Part shown: piece by piece, positions 18,891 to 30,176 of the stretch | How positions within the stretch are numbered: the stretch's first letter is position 1 | How the letters are laid out: each line of letters begins with the position of its first letter | Source: an uncultured Porphyromonadaceae bacterium | GTDB taxonomy: Bacteria; Bacteroidota; Bacteroidia; Bacteroidales; UBA11471 | Direction: 5' to 3' | Assembly (NCBI GenBank): GCA_900542765.1 | Contig: UQOX01000023.1 | Coordinates: 1 to 39,859 of the forward strand | Length of the DNA: 39,859 bases | Made by a program: the position numbers and the translations under genes | Notes under the pieces: generated by a model | What the model was told of the DNA's origin: nothing | Database searches by the model: none | What the model saw: the letters and a program-made list of their open reading frames with translations, nothing else

Positions 18891-18961
18891 AGGTTCCTAG
18901 CAGATTCGAACTGCTGTAAGTGGTTTTGCAGACCAGTGCCTAACCTCTCGGCCAAGGAACC
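18891..18961 (-). tRNA. tRNA-Cys (GCA)
   Basis: A 71-nt cloverleaf on the minus strand. The 7-bp acceptor stem is GGTTCCT/AGGAACC (18955-18961 with 18892-18898). The D arm contains AGAGGTTA, the anticodon loop CTGCAAA has anticodon GCA (complement of 18927-18929), and the T arm is AGCAG-TTCGAAT-CTGCT. The discriminator base is U, the identity base for cysteine tRNA. The outermost pair of the anticodon stem is a C-C mismatch. CCA is not encoded. Confidence 0.95.
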
Positions 18962-22670: not shown

Positions 22671-24245
22671 ATGAAAAAAGCCCTATTTCTCACAGCGACA
22701 CTTTTCTTCTTTACCCAACTCGTCTCTGCCGCCCTCGACGTCCGCTCCTTCGGAGCCAAAGGCGACGGACAGACCCTCGACACCCGGGCCATACAGGCTG
22801 CCATCGACTCGGCCTCGGCCTGCGGCGGAGAAACCGTTGTCCTCACCCCCGGCAAATACCTGAGCGGTACCCTCGTCCTGAAAAGCAACGTAACCCTGCA
22901 CATCGAACGAGGAGCCACGCTGTTGGGGAGCACACAATTCAGCGATTACCCGGCGTATGAGTCGAGCTACATCTCCCATATCAAACGATATTCCAACCGT
23001 TCGCTCATCTTCGCCGAAAAGGTCGAGAACATAACGATTTGCGGCGAAGGCACCATCGACGGGCAAGGCTCCCTGGAAAACTATCCCGCCACCGAGACCG
23101 AGACCCTCATGGGCATCACCCGACGCCCCTACCTGCTGCGTGTCATCAGCTGCAAGAATGTCACACTCAACCACATACATTTGCGCAACTCCCCAGCATG
23201 GACCCAACATTACCTCGACTGCGAAAATGTCTTCATCGACGGCATCGACGTCTATAACCACGGCAACTACAACAACGACGGCATCGACATCGACAACTGC
23301 CGACAGGTGCGCATCGTCAACAGCCACTTCAACACCGACGACGACGCCATCTGCTTCAAGACGACCAATGCCACGGGTCGGTGCGAAAACGTGGTGGTGG
23401 CCAACTGCGTCATTGCCGCCAACTGCAACGCCATGAAGTGGGGCAGCGAAACCAACGGCGGATTCCGCAACTTCACGATTACCAACTGTGTCTTCTGCCG
23501 CGCCGACGAACCCACGATTTACGACCGTCCCCACCGCACGCTCGGCGGACTTGCCATCGAAACGGTCGACGGCGCTCTGCTCGAAAACTTCAACATCAGC
23601 AACATCTCGATGTATGGGGTAATGACCCCGCTCTTCATTCGACTGGCCAACCGCGGACGCAACTATTACGACGGCGGTCCCTCCCAACCGGCAGGAACCC
23701 TGCGCAACGTGCACATAAACAACCTCACCGCCACCATGCACGGGTTGGTGACCAGCTCCATTACCGGCCTTGAAGGGCACCCGGTCGAAAACGTCACCCT
23801 CACCAACGTGCATCTGATATGCGACGGCGGCGGCTCGGCCGAACATGCCCAAAACCGCAACTTGCCCGAACGCGAAAAGGAATATCCCGAGACCCTCATC
23901 TTTGCCGATGCCCCCGCCTCGGGCCTCTATGTAAAAAATGCCCAAGGTCTGCGCATACAAAACTTATGTCTCGAAGTGCGGCAAGCCGACCCACGCGCGT
24001 TGCTCTTCATCGAACAGACCGACGATGCCGTTCTCGACGGCATCACACTCATCAACCCGGCCGCATCGTCCCAGCTCATTCTGCGCAACAACAGCGACAT
24101 ACTTGTCGAGAAACTGAGAGAGCCCGGCAAGGAAACGGCCGATGGAATCACCATAGAAGGCAACGACAACCGGAATATCGACATCGAGAAAAACTGTCCG
24201 GTGCGATTTGCCGACCAAGCTACCAAGAAATGTTTACTCAAATAG
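22671..24245 (+). CDS. glycoside hydrolase family 28 (polygalacturonase-like)
   Basis: A 524-residue secreted enzyme with a signal peptide ending near VSA (residue 20). Residues 22-60 (LDVRSFGAKGDGQTLDTRAIQAAIDSA) start a right-handed parallel beta-helix of the GH28/pectate-lyase superfamily. The acidic motifs NDGIDID (202-208) and TDDDAICFK (222-230) supply the catalytic aspartates. The usual GHG motif is replaced by NAMKWGSETNGG, as in many Bacteroidetes members. It should hydrolyse galacturonic-acid-containing glycans such as pectin; exact linkage cannot be told. It is followed by a Sel1 gene after 7 nt and then by a PL1 lyase, suggesting a small pectin-degradation unit. No SusC/SusD pair lies nearby. 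Confidence 0.9.
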   Translation: MKKALFLTATLFFFTQLVSAALDVRSFGAKGDGQTLDTRAIQAAIDSASACGGETVVLTPGKYLSGTLVLKSNVTLHIERGATLLGSTQFSDYPAYESSYISHIKRYSNRSLIFAEKVENITICGEGTIDGQGSLENYPATETETLMGITRRPYLLRVISCKNVTLNHIHLRNSPAWTQHYLDCENVFIDGIDVYNHGNYNNDGIDIDNCRQVRIVNSHFNTDDDAICFKTTNATGRCENVVVANCVIAANCNAMKWGSETNGGFRNFTITNCVFCRADEPTIYDRPHRTLGGLAIETVDGALLENFNISNISMYGVMTPLFIRLANRGRNYYDGGPSQPAGTLRNVHINNLTATMHGLVTSSITGLEGHPVENVTLTNVHLICDGGGSAEHAQNRNLPEREKEYPETLIFADAPASGLYVKNAQGLRIQNLCLEVRQADPRALLFIEQTDDAVLDGITLINPAASSQLILRNNSDILVEKLREPGKETADGITIEGNDNRNIDIEKNCPVRFADQATKKCLLK

Positions 24246-25153: not shown

Positions 25154-26551
25154 ATGAAAAACATCTTCCCCGCTCTATTGCTGCTATTCAGCATGGGGAG
25201 CATAAGCCAAGCCCAGCCCCTCGCCTTTCCCGGCGCCGAAGGATATGGGAAATACACCACCGGCGGACGGGGCGGCAAAGTCATCACCGTAACCAATCTC
25301 AACGACAGCGGCCCCGGCAGCCTACGCGATGCCGTAGAACAGAAAGGGGCCCGCATCATTGTTTTTGCCATCGACGGGACCATCGAATTGAAATCGCCCT
25401 TGCGCATCAACAACGACAGCATCACCATCGCCGGGCAATCGGCCCCGGGCGACGGTATCTGCCTGAAAGATTATCCGCTGACCATCAATGCCAGCAACGT
25501 CATCATACGTTACCTGCGCGTGCGTGTGGGCGACCGTTACCAGCGCGACAGCGACGGCATAGGAGGCGGTCGTTACGGACAGAAAAATGTAATTCTCGAC
25601 CACCTCTCTGCCAGTTGGAGTATCGACGAGTGCCTGTCGATATACAAGACCGAGAATCTCACCGTGCAATGGTGTCTCATCTCGCACAGCCTGAACCACT
25701 CGATACACACCAAAGGAAGCCACGGTTTCGGCGGCATTTGGGGCGGATACAAAGCAACGTTCCACCACAACCTGCTGGCCAACCACGCGAGCCGCAACCC
25801 GCGCTTTGCCTCGGTCGACGGTACCAAATGGGTCGATTACCGCAACAACGTCGTGTATAACTGGGGGTATAAAACCGCGTATGGCGGAGGGCACCACGGC
25901 GAGATAAACCTCGTAAACAATTATTACAAACCGGGACCGGCCTCGCAACACCACCGACTGCTCGACGTGGCCGATGACGGGACCGGGCGCTACTATGTGG
26001 CCGGCAATGTCATGGAGGGCGACACGGCCGTGACTTTGGACAACCTTGCCGCCATCGGTGACCGTCCGGGAAAGAGCTATACCCCCGATGCAAAAAACAG
26101 CCAGAAAACGCTCGGCATAGCTCCCGATGCCGTTCCCACGCCGGGTGAGGCAAGTGCTTCGTGCATCGTCTCCACCCCATTCCCCTATGAACCGATAGAA
26201 GAAGACAGCCCGGCCGAAGCCTACCGCCGGGTATTGGCCATCGCCGGGTGCAGCCACGCCCGCGACAGCTACGACAAGGCGGTCATCGAGCAAGTGAAAA
26301 AGGGTCTCGGGACATTCGGCACCAACGGCATCATCGACACGCCCGCAGATGCCGGCAGCTGGCCCAAGTTGAAATCGAAAAAGCCCCGCAAGGACAGTGA
26401 CGGCGACGGTATGCCCGACCGCTGGGAAAAACGTCACGGGCTCAATCGGCACGACCCGAGCGATGCCTCGGCCTACACGATAAGCCAGGAATATACCAAT
26501 ATCGAATGTTACCTCAACAGCCTGGTCGGCAAGAATTTTTCTACAAAATAA
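25154..26551 (+). CDS. pectate lyase family 1 protein with C-terminal calcium-binding motif
   Basis: A 465-residue secreted lyase with a signal peptide (residues 1-20, MKNIFPALLLLFSMGSISQA). The N-terminus AFPGAEGYGKYTTGGRGGKVITVTNLNDSGPGSLRDAV and the beta-helix strands (GQSAPGDGICL, NVILDHLSASWSIDECLSIY, SHGFGGIWGGYKATFHHNLLANHASRNPRF) are characteristic of Bacteroidetes PL1-type pectate lyases. These enzymes cleave polygalacturonan by beta-elimination with calcium. Near the C-terminus DSDGDGMPDRWEKRHGLN (from 414) is a thrombospondin-type-3-like Ca2+ loop common in such proteins. It lies 100 nt after the Sel1 gene on the same strand and probably belongs to the same transcript. A weak hairpin at its end (26539-26546 with 26571-26578) overlaps the next promoter. 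Confidence 0.9.
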   Translation: MKNIFPALLLLFSMGSISQAQPLAFPGAEGYGKYTTGGRGGKVITVTNLNDSGPGSLRDAVEQKGARIIVFAIDGTIELKSPLRINNDSITIAGQSAPGDGICLKDYPLTINASNVIIRYLRVRVGDRYQRDSDGIGGGRYGQKNVILDHLSASWSIDECLSIYKTENLTVQWCLISHSLNHSIHTKGSHGFGGIWGGYKATFHHNLLANHASRNPRFASVDGTKWVDYRNNVVYNWGYKTAYGGGHHGEINLVNNYYKPGPASQHHRLLDVADDGTGRYYVAGNVMEGDTAVTLDNLAAIGDRPGKSYTPDAKNSQKTLGIAPDAVPTPGEASASCIVSTPFPYEPIEEDSPAEAYRRVLAIAGCSHARDSYDKAVIEQVKKGLGTFGTNGIIDTPADAGSWPKLKSKKPRKDSDGDGMPDRWEKRHGLNRHDPSDASAYTISQEYTNIECYLNSLVGKNFSTK

Positions 26552-26570: not shown

Positions 26571-26601
26571 TTGTAGAATTGAATTTATTTTTCTACTTTT
26601 G
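26571..26601 (+). promoter_or_regulatory. promoter of the trp leader and trpB2
   Basis: TTG (26571-26573), a 20-nt spacer and TACTTTTG (26594-26601) form a good Bacteroidetes promoter. Transcription would begin near 26608, 16 nt before the leader-peptide ATG. Confidence 0.75.
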
Positions 26602-26623
26602 CCTCAAAGAAAAAACGAACGAC

Positions 26624-26686
26624 ATGCATTCGACATACGCAAAAAATTGGCAAGGTTGGCGTCACTTACACCCCCGATGGTCGTAA
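26624..26686 (+). CDS. trpL: tryptophan leader peptide
   Basis: A 20-residue open frame, MHSTYAKNWQGWRHLHPRWS, with Trp codons at 26648, 26657 and 26678 and a TAA at 26684-26686. Three tryptophans in 20 residues is far above chance. The frame sits between a promoter and a strong terminator upstream of trpB2, exactly as expected for a ribosome-mediated attenuator. The second Trp codon lies inside pairing segment 1. When charged tRNA-Trp is scarce the ribosome should stall there and free segment 2. No Shine-Dalgarno is seen, which is normal in this phylum. The assignment rests on context; the peptide itself is probably not functional as a protein. Confidence 0.85.
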   Translation: MHSTYAKNWQGWRHLHPRWS

Positions 26687-26750
26687 GACACAACCTCCAT
26701 ATCCCCATATAAGAAGGTTTGTCACGGCCGTGACAAACCTTCTTTTTTTT
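26653..26750 (+). promoter_or_regulatory. tryptophan transcription attenuator
   Basis: Four mutually complementary segments are visible: 1, AGGTTGGCGTC (26653-26663, within the leader peptide and including a Trp codon); 2, GACACAACCT (26687-26696, directly after the leader stop); 3, AGGTTTGTC (26715-26723); 4, GACAAACCT (26732-26740). Segments 1 and 2 pair as the protector hairpin (six pairs, a small internal loop, three pairs). Segments 2 and 3 pair as antiterminator (nine pairs, one bulged C). Segments 3 and 4 form the core of the terminator. Ribosome stalling at the second Trp codon would mask segment 1, allow 2:3 pairing and let transcription reach trpB2. With ample tryptophan, 1:2 and 3:4 form and transcription stops. 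Confidence 0.85.
26711..26750 (+). terminator. attenuator terminator
   Basis: A perfect 34-nt palindrome (26711-26744) gives a 15-bp stem with a GGCC tetraloop, followed by an uninterrupted run of T to 26750. It lies 55 nt before the trpB2 start, so it must be bypassed for expression from the promoter at 26571. Confidence 0.95.
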
Positions 26751-26804
26751 GTATTTACCCCATGCTTATTATCTAACAATATCTCATAATAAATCAATGT
26801 AACA

Positions 26805-28166
26805 ATGGAAACAAAAAAATTTTTACTGCAAGAAAAAGACATTCCCACGGCATGGTATAACATCGTCGCCGACATGAAGACGAAACCCCTGCCCCCCTTG
26901 AATCCTCAGACCCATCAACCGATGAAAGAGGAAGATTTCTATCCGCTCTTCGCCAAAGAGCTGGCACACCAGGAGATGAACCAGACAGATGCCTGGATAG
27001 AGATACCCGAACAAGTGCGTGACATGTATAAGATATGGAGACCGACCCCCCTGGTACGAGCCTACGGCCTCGAAAAATATCTCGACACCCCGGCCCACAT
27101 CTATTTCAAAAACGAAAGTGTCAGCCCGGTAGGTTCCCACAAACTCAACTCGGCCATTGCACAAGCCTATTTCTGCAAAAAAGAGGGCGTAACCAATATC
27201 ACCACCGAGACCGGTGCCGGCCAATGGGGTGCCGCACTCTCCTTTGCCGCCAAGGCTTTCGGTCTCGAACTGGCCGTGTATATGGTAAAAGTGAGCTACC
27301 ACCAGAAACCCTATCGCCGCTCCATCATGCAGACATTCGGTGCCCAAGTCATCGCATCGCCCAGTATGAGTACCCGTGCCGGCCGTAAAATCCTCACCGA
27401 GCACCCCAACTACCAAGGCAGTTTGGGAACCGCCATCTCCGAAGCCGTGGAACTGGCCATGCAGACGCCCAACTGCAAATATACGCTGGGCAGTGTGCTC
27501 AACCATGTGATGCTGCATCAAACGGTCATCGGACTCGAAGCCGAAAAGCAGATGGAAATGGCCGGAGAATATCCCGATGTGGTTATCGCCTGCTTCGGTG
27601 GCGGTTCGAACTTCTCGGGCATCTCCTTCCCCTTCCTGCGCCACAAGCTGAAAGAAGGGAAGAATCTCCGCGTCGTTGCGGCCGAGCCGGCCTCCTGCCC
27701 CAAGCTCACCCGCGGTGTCTTCCAGTATGACTTTGGCGACGAAGCCGGATACACGCCTCTTATCCCCATGTTCACGCTGGGACACAACTTCTCACCGTCG
27801 AATATCCACGCCGGCGGTCTCCGTTACCACGGAGCCGGATCCATCGTAAGCCAGTTGCGCAAAGAGGGTCTCATGGAAGCTGTCGACATACCCCAACTCG
27901 AAACCTTCAAGGCTGCCACCATCTTTGCCCAGGCCGAAGGCATCATTCCCGCGCCCGAGTCGTCGCACGCCATCGCAACAGCCATTCGTGAAGCCGAACA
28001 AGCCAAACTCGAAGGAAAATCAAAAGTCATTCTCTTCAACCTCTCGGGTCACGGTCTCATCGACATGGCAGCTTACGACCAATACATCGCCAACGACCTG
28101 CAAAACTACGAGGTCACCGACGAAGAAGTGGCCCGCAACATTTCGCAACTCGAAAAAATCATCTAA
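26805..28166 (+). CDS. trpB: tryptophan synthase beta chain, TrpB2 type
   Basis: A 453-residue PLP enzyme that makes tryptophan from indole (or indole glycerol phosphate products) and serine. The catalytic lysine is Lys113 in GSHKLNSA. ETGAGQWG (135-142), with Trp where canonical TrpB1 has His, and the N-terminal extension identify the TrpB2 class. GGGSN (265-269) binds the cofactor phosphate. No trpA or other trp gene is next to it, so it is a stand-alone copy, which in gut bacteria could salvage external indole (inference). Control by the Trp attenuator immediately upstream argues that its physiological product really is tryptophan. It is closed by a strong terminator. Confidence 0.95.
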   Translation: METKKFLLQEKDIPTAWYNIVADMKTKPLPPLNPQTHQPMKEEDFYPLFAKELAHQEMNQTDAWIEIPEQVRDMYKIWRPTPLVRAYGLEKYLDTPAHIYFKNESVSPVGSHKLNSAIAQAYFCKKEGVTNITTETGAGQWGAALSFAAKAFGLELAVYMVKVSYHQKPYRRSIMQTFGAQVIASPSMSTRAGRKILTEHPNYQGSLGTAISEAVELAMQTPNCKYTLGSVLNHVMLHQTVIGLEAEKQMEMAGEYPDVVIACFGGGSNFSGISFPFLRHKLKEGKNLRVVAAEPASCPKLTRGVFQYDFGDEAGYTPLIPMFTLGHNFSPSNIHAGGLRYHGAGSIVSQLRKEGLMEAVDIPQLETFKAATIFAQAEGIIPAPESSHAIATAIREAEQAKLEGKSKVILFNLSGHGLIDMAAYDQYIANDLQNYEVTDEEVARNISQLEKII

Positions 28167-28217: not shown

Positions 28218-28259
28218 CAGAGAACGGCACCCTGTTCGGGGTGTCGTTCTCTGTTTTTT
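28218..28259 (+). terminator. terminator of trpB2
   Basis: A 15-bp stem with one G-U pair (28218-28232 with 28239-28253) has a 6-nt loop and is followed by TTTTTT. Confidence 0.92.
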
Positions 28260-28420: not shown

Positions 28421-30176
28421 ATGTTCCTAAACCAAATCCACTCTCCCCAAGACATCAAACGACTCTCCTTGTCACAACTCGAAGAGCTGTCGCAAGAGAT
28501 ACGACAAGCCCTGCTGGCAAAGCTCAGCGTTCACGGCGGACACGTCGGTCCCAATCTCGGCATGGTCGAGGCCACGATTGCCCTGCATGTCGTGTTTGAC
28601 TCTCCCCACGATAAAATCGTCTATGACGTTTCGCACCAAAGCTATACCCACAAAATGCTTACCGGTCGCGCCGAAGCCTTTCTCGACCCGGCCGAATACG
28701 ACTCCGTAACCGGATATACCAACCGGCAGGAAAGTGAACACGACTTCTTCACCGTAGGACACACCTCGACCTCGGTGAGCCTGGCCGGCGGACTGGCCAA
28801 GGCCCGCGACCTGAAAGGCGAACAGGGAAACATCATCGCCGTCATAGGCGACGGCTCCCTCAGCGGAGGGGAAGCCTTCGAAGGACTGAGCAATGCAGCC
28901 GAAGCCGGCACCAACATGATCATCGTCGTGAACGACAACGAAATGTCCATCGCCGAAAACCACGGCGGACTGTACCAAAACCTGCAACTGCTGCGCGAAA
29001 GCCACGGTGAAGCCCCCTGCAACTACTTCCGTTCGCTGGGTCTCGACTACGTCTATGTCGAGGAGGGCAACGACATCGCCACCCTCATCGAGACATTCCG
29101 TCGGGTCAAAGACTGCCCGCACCCGGTAGTCGTGCACATACACACCCTGAAAGGGAAGGGTTACGCCTTGGCCGAACAGGAGAAGGAACGTTTCCATTGG
29201 AGCCTGCCGTTCGACCTCTCGACAGGAGAAGTAAACGTTTCTGAGGAGGAAAAAGACTACGACGAACTCACCGGAGCCTTCCTGCTCGACGAAATAGGCA
29301 AGGATCCGCGAGTCGTCGCCATCACGTCGGGTACTCCTGCCGTATTCGGCTTCTCACCCGAACGCCGTCGCAAAGCCGGCCGGCAGTTTGTCGACGTGGG
29401 CATTGCCGAAGAACACGCCGTGGCACTGGCTTCGGGCATCGCTGCCGGTGGAGGCTGCCCCGTGTACGGAGTATACAGCACCTTCATACAACGCACCTAC
29501 GACCAACTCTCGCAAGACCTCTGCATCAACAACAACCCGGCCGTCATCTGCGTCTTCGCCGCTTCGGTATGGGGTATGAACGATGTCACCCATCTCGGGC
29601 TATTCGACATACCCATGCTCTCCAACATACCCAACCTGGTCTATCTGGCACCGACCTGCAAAGAGGAATATTTTGCCATGCTCCGTTGGGGTATGCGGCA
29701 AACGAGCCACCCGGTGGCCATTCGCGTGCCGGGCAACGGCGTGATATGCAACAACTCACCCGTCGATGCCGATTACGGCGACCTCAACCGCTACAAGGTC
29801 ATGCAACAGGGCGACACGGTCGCCATCATCGCCGCCGGGTCGTTCTACCAATTAGGCGAAACGGTTGCCCAACAGTTGCACGAGCAACAGGGAATCACCC
29901 CTACCCTCATCAACCCGCGTTACCTCACCGGCACCGACGACAAAAATGCTCGACAGCCTGAAAAAAGACCACCGGCTGGTCATCACGCTCGAAGACGGCA
30001 TTCTCGACGGAGGTTTCGGCGAGAAGATAGCCCGATTCTACGGTGACAGCGATATGAAAGTGCTCAATTACGGACTGCGCAAGGAGTTTGTCGACCGATA
30101 CGACGCCGGCGAATTACTCTCGGCCAACCGTCTCACCGCCCCGCAAATCGTCGAAGACATCGCCACCGTACTGTAA
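28421..30176 (+). pseudogene. DXS-like transketolase-family gene with a single-base frameshift
   Basis: The locus encodes a 584-residue thiamine-diphosphate enzyme resembling 1-deoxy-D-xylulose-5-phosphate synthase, though shorter than the usual 620-640. The N-terminal part has HGGHVGPNLGMVEATIALH, YDVSHQSYTHKMLTGR and the ThDP/Mg2+ motif GDGSLSGGEAFEGLSNAAE...NDNEMSIAEN. The middle domain has VDVGIAEEHAVALASGIA. At 29942-29946 there is AAAAA where the family-consistent reading (TGTDDKMLDSLKKDHRLVITLEDGILDGG) needs AAAA. In the frame as given, the protein continues out of frame to a stop at 30046. The correct C-terminal domain continues in the +1 frame to TAA near 30176. Sequencing or assembly error, a real mutation, or slippage on the A-run are all possible. 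It may be a paralogue rather than the main dxs. Confidence 0.82.

Follow-up and report, generated by a model that had tools for sequence, protein, structure and literature searches.

What controls a trpB2 gene that stands apart from any tryptophan operon, and what might its product be for? The question is raised by the window, i.e. the whole stretch of 39,859 nucleotides analysed here, from an uncultured bacterium of the order Bacteroidales. In it, trpB2 (26805..28166, + strand) encodes a TrpB-like PLP enzyme of TIGR01415/NF009057, scoring 608.5 bits against the curated TIGR01415 cut-off of 518.85. The best of its relatives with a solved structure is 6hul; 4qys and 6hte are named tryptophan synthase beta chain 2. 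No other trp gene was found in the window by comparison with the seven ORFs of the trp region of a congener, G006, in which trpB1, D, C, F and A agree with separate gene searches, trpE and trpG being assigned by position only. A terminator-like hairpin 3' of the gene (28218..28253, + strand; consensus scan only) is consistent with a monocistronic trpB2 unit. Concerning the surroundings, the two genes directly upstream (22671-24245 and 25154-26551) are rhamnogalacturonidase/polygalacturonase-like and pectate-lyase-like, with NCBIfam scores below the cut-offs, which would place pectin use beside trpB2. The gene that follows (28421-30046) resembles 1-deoxyxylulose-5-phosphate synthase (NF008968, 814.7 bits vs 510), the gap to it being about 0.27 kb in the window and about 3.2 kb in the congener G004. 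At gathering score, Rfam matches the window only in a tRNA gene (18891-18961, − strand).

The trp attenuator of enterobacteria consists of a leader peptide with close Trp codons and of RNA segments that pair alternatively as 1:2, 2:3 and 3:4. The initial annotation had proposed a complete device of this kind in front of trpB2, and its parts—leader, antiterminator and terminator—are indeed present. The promoter it had placed before the leader is borne out by a box in the sequence, TACTTTTG (26594..26601, + strand), matching TAnnTTTG, which we take to be the Bacteroidota −7 consensus; from the usual distance after such a box, the transcript presumably starts near 26605. The 20-codon frame MHSTYAKNWQGWRHLHPRWS (26624..26686, + strand; ATG at 26624, stop TAA at 26684-26686) was found exactly as described, its three Trp codons beginning at 26648 and 26657, both conserved, and at 26678, non-conserved. 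Segment 1 (26653..26663, + strand) pairs with 26687-26696, with 9 pairs in this stretch, and segment 2 (26679..26698, + strand) forms the predicted 5' arm of the antiterminator. Segment 3 (26711..26729, + strand) comprises the 5' arm and the loop of the terminator, its portion 26713-26729 being the antiterminator 3' arm. The intrinsic terminator, including the T-run, spans 26711..26752 (+ strand; 15 bp, −22.1 kcal/mol), and its hairpin (26711-26744) is as perfect as had been claimed, with 15 pairs, a loop of 4 and the T-run next to it.

Could the hairpin simply be the ordinary terminator of an upstream transcript, the Trp-rich frame being accidental? Intrinsic terminators are common, and the CDS 25154-26551 ends upstream of the leader on the same strand; against this, that CDS is separated from the leader by the promoter box, and the combination of the two elements is hardly reproduced by chance. 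Dinucleotide shuffling of the window's own 260-nt upstream region gave a leader with clustered Trp codons in 10 of 2000 cases and the leader plus terminator in none of 2000. The window has, on its two strands together, 27 ATG starts of such ORFs (7-35 aa); a terminator within 100 nt downstream was seen for that of the trpB2 leader alone. The same was seen in 203 unique trpB2 upstream regions, obtained by pooling order-level genomes with the named loci (213 minus those shorter than 200 nt or bearing N, identical ones merged; the near-identical window and L001 kept as separate entries). An ATG leader with clustered Trp codons occurs in 61 of them, compared with 50 of 4060 shuffles and 8 of 289 control ORFs, and the leader plus terminator in 47, compared with 1/4060 and 0/289, respectively. 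It should be noted that the scan accepted ATG starts only, a looser one (57/213) having taken in the false TTG-start leaders L027, L032, L122, L126 and L127. The doubtful leader of L073 is counted among the 61, not among the 47; it is a WQRW frame about 180 nt upstream of trpB2, in coding-like sequence and with no terminator found, and is probably a chance frame. An accidental frame before an ordinary terminator is, on this evidence, very improbable.

For the attenuator to switch, its pairings have to exclude each other. The 1:2, 2:3 and 3:4 pairings of the four segments drawn in the initial annotation are all predicted; the 2:3 pairing had been drawn too short, since the terminator loop also takes part. 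As predicted now, this antiterminator joins 26679-26698 with 26713-26729 by 16 pairs. Its duplex has an energy of −18.6 kcal/mol (z −4.1), an equally good one being reached in 1 of 200 shuffles. Sharing segment 3 with the terminator, it is mutually exclusive with it, and it is placed at the edge of the ribosome: the 5' arm begins 22 nt downstream of 26657, where the second conserved Trp codon starts. Segment 2 does not start right after the leader stop, as had been thought, its arm from 26679 overlapping the last codons and the stop. The third Trp codon (26678-26680) was considered as a sensor and rejected; it is probably not one, because it is replaced by Arg in both other congeners and overlaps the start of the antiterminator arm.

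Folding predictions for partial transcripts agree with two alternative states. The RNA 26674-26733, from which segment 4 is absent, folds as the antiterminator (−19.0 kcal/mol), and the RNA from 26700 onward, corresponding to a ribosome at the stop, as the terminator (−22.6 kcal/mol). With all four segments free, from 26674, the minimum-energy fold is the terminator (−27.0 kcal/mol), so the antiterminator would need co-transcriptional timing. When tryptophan is short, the ribosome would stall at the Trp codons 26648/26657; stalled at 26657, it would, with the footprint we assume for it, leave segment 2 free to pair with segment 3 before segment 4 is made, so that no terminator would form and trpB2 would be transcribed. 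When tryptophan is plentiful, the ribosome would reach the stop 26684-26686 and cover segment 2; the 3:4 hairpin would then form, and transcription would end with the release of an RNA of roughly 145 nt, counted from the start near 26605. If the leader were not translated, 1:2 pairing would favour termination. A different sensor acting on the same terminator—a T-box, a riboswitch or a protein-bound leader—might also be imagined, T-boxes or TRAP being described as serving trp genes in other bacteria. Neither the window nor 20 related loci gave an Rfam riboswitch or T-box match at gathering score, and Trp codons clustered in a short frame are meaningful only if translated, which makes such a sensor extremely improbable. 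Sensing by the translating ribosome is thus the reading followed below.

Conservation in relatives, on which the initial annotation had staked its proposal, was found both within the genus and beyond it. Apart from L001 (genome G001), nearly identical to the window, the genus offers two further distinct leader sequences, L002 (= G004) and L004 (= G002), with the peptides MNFLSRNWQGWRHLHSQRS and MNMIVTHICHWQGWYRTYNPHRS, respectively. In both, the WQGW frame, the terminator and, at the stop of the leader, GGTCGTAAG are kept. The 3:4 pairs are retained at 14/15 (L002) and 13/15 (L004), and those of 2:3 at 15/16 and 11/16, the remaining five in L004 being broken. As to 1:2, the pair 26662:26688 is changed on both sides in L002 (U-A to C-G) and the pair 26661:26689 is broken in L004. 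The covarying stems that had been expected are thus thinly represented in the genus: the three sequences yield a single pair in which both bases are changed. No conserved gene block was found round trpB2 in comparison with the operon-only congeners G005-G007.

The order as a whole is more informative. TrpB2 (E 1e-150 or better) is present in 140 of 392 genomes of at least 90% completeness, and the upstream DNA was read for 130 of these, two partial genes and the eight lowest-scoring ones being left out; for L143-L242 the gene start was set from the match, and positions may err by a few codons. Counted irrespective of a terminator, ATG leaders with Trp clusters precede trpB2 in 49 of the 130 genomes, covering 25 of the 45 TrpB2-bearing families read (L151 was excluded by hand from this count and from those of terminators and promoter boxes). 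Runs of three or four Trp codons, none longer, are present in 26 of the 49. A terminator within 260 nt accompanies trpB2 in 38 of 49 genomes with the leader vs 9 of 81 without it. Of 52 loci bearing the leader, a set that includes both L001 and the near-identical window, 35 have a promoter box in the 75 nt preceding its ATG, vs 6.3% of shuffles. The earlier opinion that an attenuator on trpB2 is unusual in Bacteroidetes therefore did not hold, the more so as the Bacteroid-trp motif had already been listed for the phylum (RF01692; PMC2864571, as far as the part available describes it). The mechanism of trp attenuation is already known; the target gene and the breadth across the order are new. 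In the titles and abstracts covered, most subscription journals lying outside that coverage, no attenuator in front of a stand-alone trpB2 was reported for Bacteroidota.

The closest TrpB2 sequences, those of Parabacteroides and kin, have no such leader, and the window clade lies near them in the TrpB2 tree. That tree has 103 rows, none of them shorter than 440 aa, with a stop or identical to another, and none from the genomes of L143-L242; the doubtful L073 counts as a leader in it. Its starred branches force at least four changes of the leader label by a quick method. Two loci, L072 and L139, carry upstream of trpB2 single-Trp-codon frames (YWR type) with a full terminator and are possibly decaying attenuators. 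In family f99 (L122-L124, L126, L127), a conserved 15-bp hairpin with a T-run, perhaps the terminator of the upstream gene, is located about 145-190 nt upstream of trpB2, with no ATG Trp leader.

Covariation was also sought order-wide, by a swap test in which the stop region of each of 46 leaders was paired both with the terminator arm of the same leader and with those of all the others. The mean energy was −13.9 kcal/mol for own pairs and −10.1 for swapped ones; the double-centred mean of −3.65, compared with a permutation standard deviation of 0.42, was matched in 0 of 5000 permutations. The own partner ranked first in 7/46 and among the top three in 16/46, near relatives sharing arms, and its advantage was absent in several leaders (L160, L162, L182, L197, L201 and L226). 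Taken singly, 24 of 47 leaders have a 2:3 pairing in the top 5% of shuffles and 23 fall short of it. The co-fit of the 2:3 partners across leaders gives this predicted pairing stronger support than the genus covariation does; for 1:2, the order-wide signal is weak (p 0.02).

How do these leaders relate to known motifs? The enterobacterial Trp_leader (RF00513) is alike in the close Trp codons of its leader peptide and in its 1:2/2:3/3:4 alternatives, but it controls a biosynthetic operon, whereas here the target is a lone trpB2; no match at gathering score was obtained in the window or in 20 related loci, and the best score seen anywhere was 26.8 bits vs 41, at L165. According to the available part of PMC1262725, attenuators have been predicted for trp operons of Corynebacterium and Streptomyces, including C. 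diphtheriae trpB2A, where a Trp leader also precedes a gene called trpB2. There, trpB2 and trpA belong to one operon and a second trpB is the first gene of another, whereas here trpB2 is alone and the nearest genome has no trpA match.

Also among the closest known counterparts is Bacteroid-trp (RF01692), from the same phylum and of the same build, in which a leader frame rich in Trp and a terminator following it lie ahead of a trp gene. It has WWW where the window leader has WQGW, and the target in the window is the stand-alone trpB2. Matches to RF01692 in G005-G007 (45.7-48.9 bits) fall just under the cut-off of 49 and lie directly before trpB1 of the trp operon. The window gave no match even at E 10, none at the gathering score was found in 20 loci, 11 of them counted as leader-bearing, and none at E 0.1 in 20 leader loci; weak matches were seen on two trpB2 leaders, 21.6 bits (E 7.5) in G004 and 35.5 bits (E 0.027) at L075. 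The Bacteroid-trp leaders of the operon nevertheless share two elements with the trpB2 leaders of the genus, namely GTCGTAAG, at the stop of the leader, and AAGG...GTC, in the arm of the terminator. Aligned to the 8 trp-operon leaders that could be extracted out of 10, the genus trpB2 leaders give z scores of 4.3-8.0; against the best trpB2 leaders from other families, z is 5.3-6.9. Since shared architecture raises both comparisons, these scores are only suggestive of a trp-operon leader copied onto trpB2; kinship with the trp-operon leaders of the same genus is plausible, though unproven.

It remains to ask what the attenuated gene would serve. In G001, the nearest genome (99% complete; TrpB2 100% identical), the searches returned no match for trpA, trpB1, trpC, trpD, trpF or tryptophanase, and in G002 (78% complete) none for trpA, C, D and F. 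Operon genes are present in G005, G006 and G007, which have no TrpB2, and G003 (70% complete) has trpA, C, D and F with no TrpB match. G004 possesses TrpB2 plus a trp operon; one stop had been flagged inside its trpB1 and trpA, and a decaying operon was considered and dismissed, both ORFs reading open (393 and 257 aa). A tryptophanase-like gene occurs in the operon-bearing G006 (C6:2174-3526, L273), scoring 533 bits against TIGR02617, whose cut-off of 825.8 it does not reach, and no tryptophanase match was found in the other six genus genomes, three of them 70-83% complete. Across the order, 26 genomes have both leader and trpA; in all 19 of these that were examined, no trp gene was found in the 4 kb after trpB2 (E 1e-5; no positive control at that distance).

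Membership in TIGR01415 and the lack of matches in the nearest genome for the de novo genes searched support the indole-salvage role first suggested, and the window trpB2 product probably turns scavenged indole into tryptophan. Published work points the same way: an E. coli trpA mutant benefits from BT_RS23500 of B. thetaiotaomicron (59% identical to a Thermotoga TrpB2) only if the wild type is spotted alongside, which the available part of PMC11535334 reads as use of secreted indole. Bifidobacteria use outside indole as well (PMC11085991, in the part available), and the accessible part of the table of gut Trp pathway variants in PMC9026213 has no TrpB2-only class.

The attenuator might still be real and the main job of TrpB2 a different one, either as a spare synthase working with TrpA or as another beta-replacement enzyme that happens to be Trp-regulated. 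The leader is found in 26 of 80 trpA-positive TrpB2 genomes (trpA-positive meaning E <1e-20, 152 genomes; 154 exceed the Pfam cut-off), and in the leaderless G136, G278 and G331 a distance of 3.5-5 kb separates trpB2 from trpA on the same strand. On the other side stand the published indole cross-feeding of the Bacteroides TrpB2 (PMC11535334, as far as available) and the absence of a trpA match in G001 and 22 other leader-bearing genomes, which therefore have no obvious internal indole source. A main job other than salvage of outside indole appears unlikely. The idea that leader presence tracks pathway loss was likewise unsupported: 23 of 50 trpA-negative TrpB2 genomes have the leader, a proportion not distinguishable from that of the trpA-positive ones (Fisher p 0.14), so that having the attenuator does not by itself indicate that the pathway was lost.

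Based on the above results, a conserved classical-type trp attenuator probably sits on a probable indole-salvage gene. In the window, a stand-alone TrpB2 using outside indole is very likely controlled by transcription attenuation of the classical, ribosome-mediated type, with charged tRNA-Trp as the signal; we infer the switching, the response to tryptophan and indole as the natural substrate, which TrpB2, once made, would turn into tryptophan. A wider proposal, decidedly more tentative, is that across the order the stand-alone trpB2 may be a module for indole capture, inducible by Trp starvation, equipped with an attenuator of its own and acquired several times, in this genus perhaps by copying the Bacteroid-trp leader of the trp operon; it would keep Trp feedback after loss of the operon and make the cells dependent on the indole of their neighbours. 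The trpB2 leaders mark a group of attenuators missed at cut-off by the trp-leader model that Rfam holds for the phylum. The Trp-codon attenuator before a lone trpB2 in more than half of the TrpB2-bearing families read is regulatory evidence that TrpB2 relieves tryptophan starvation, and in genomes without de novo gene matches an attenuated trpB2 points to regulated indole cross-feeding among bacteria.
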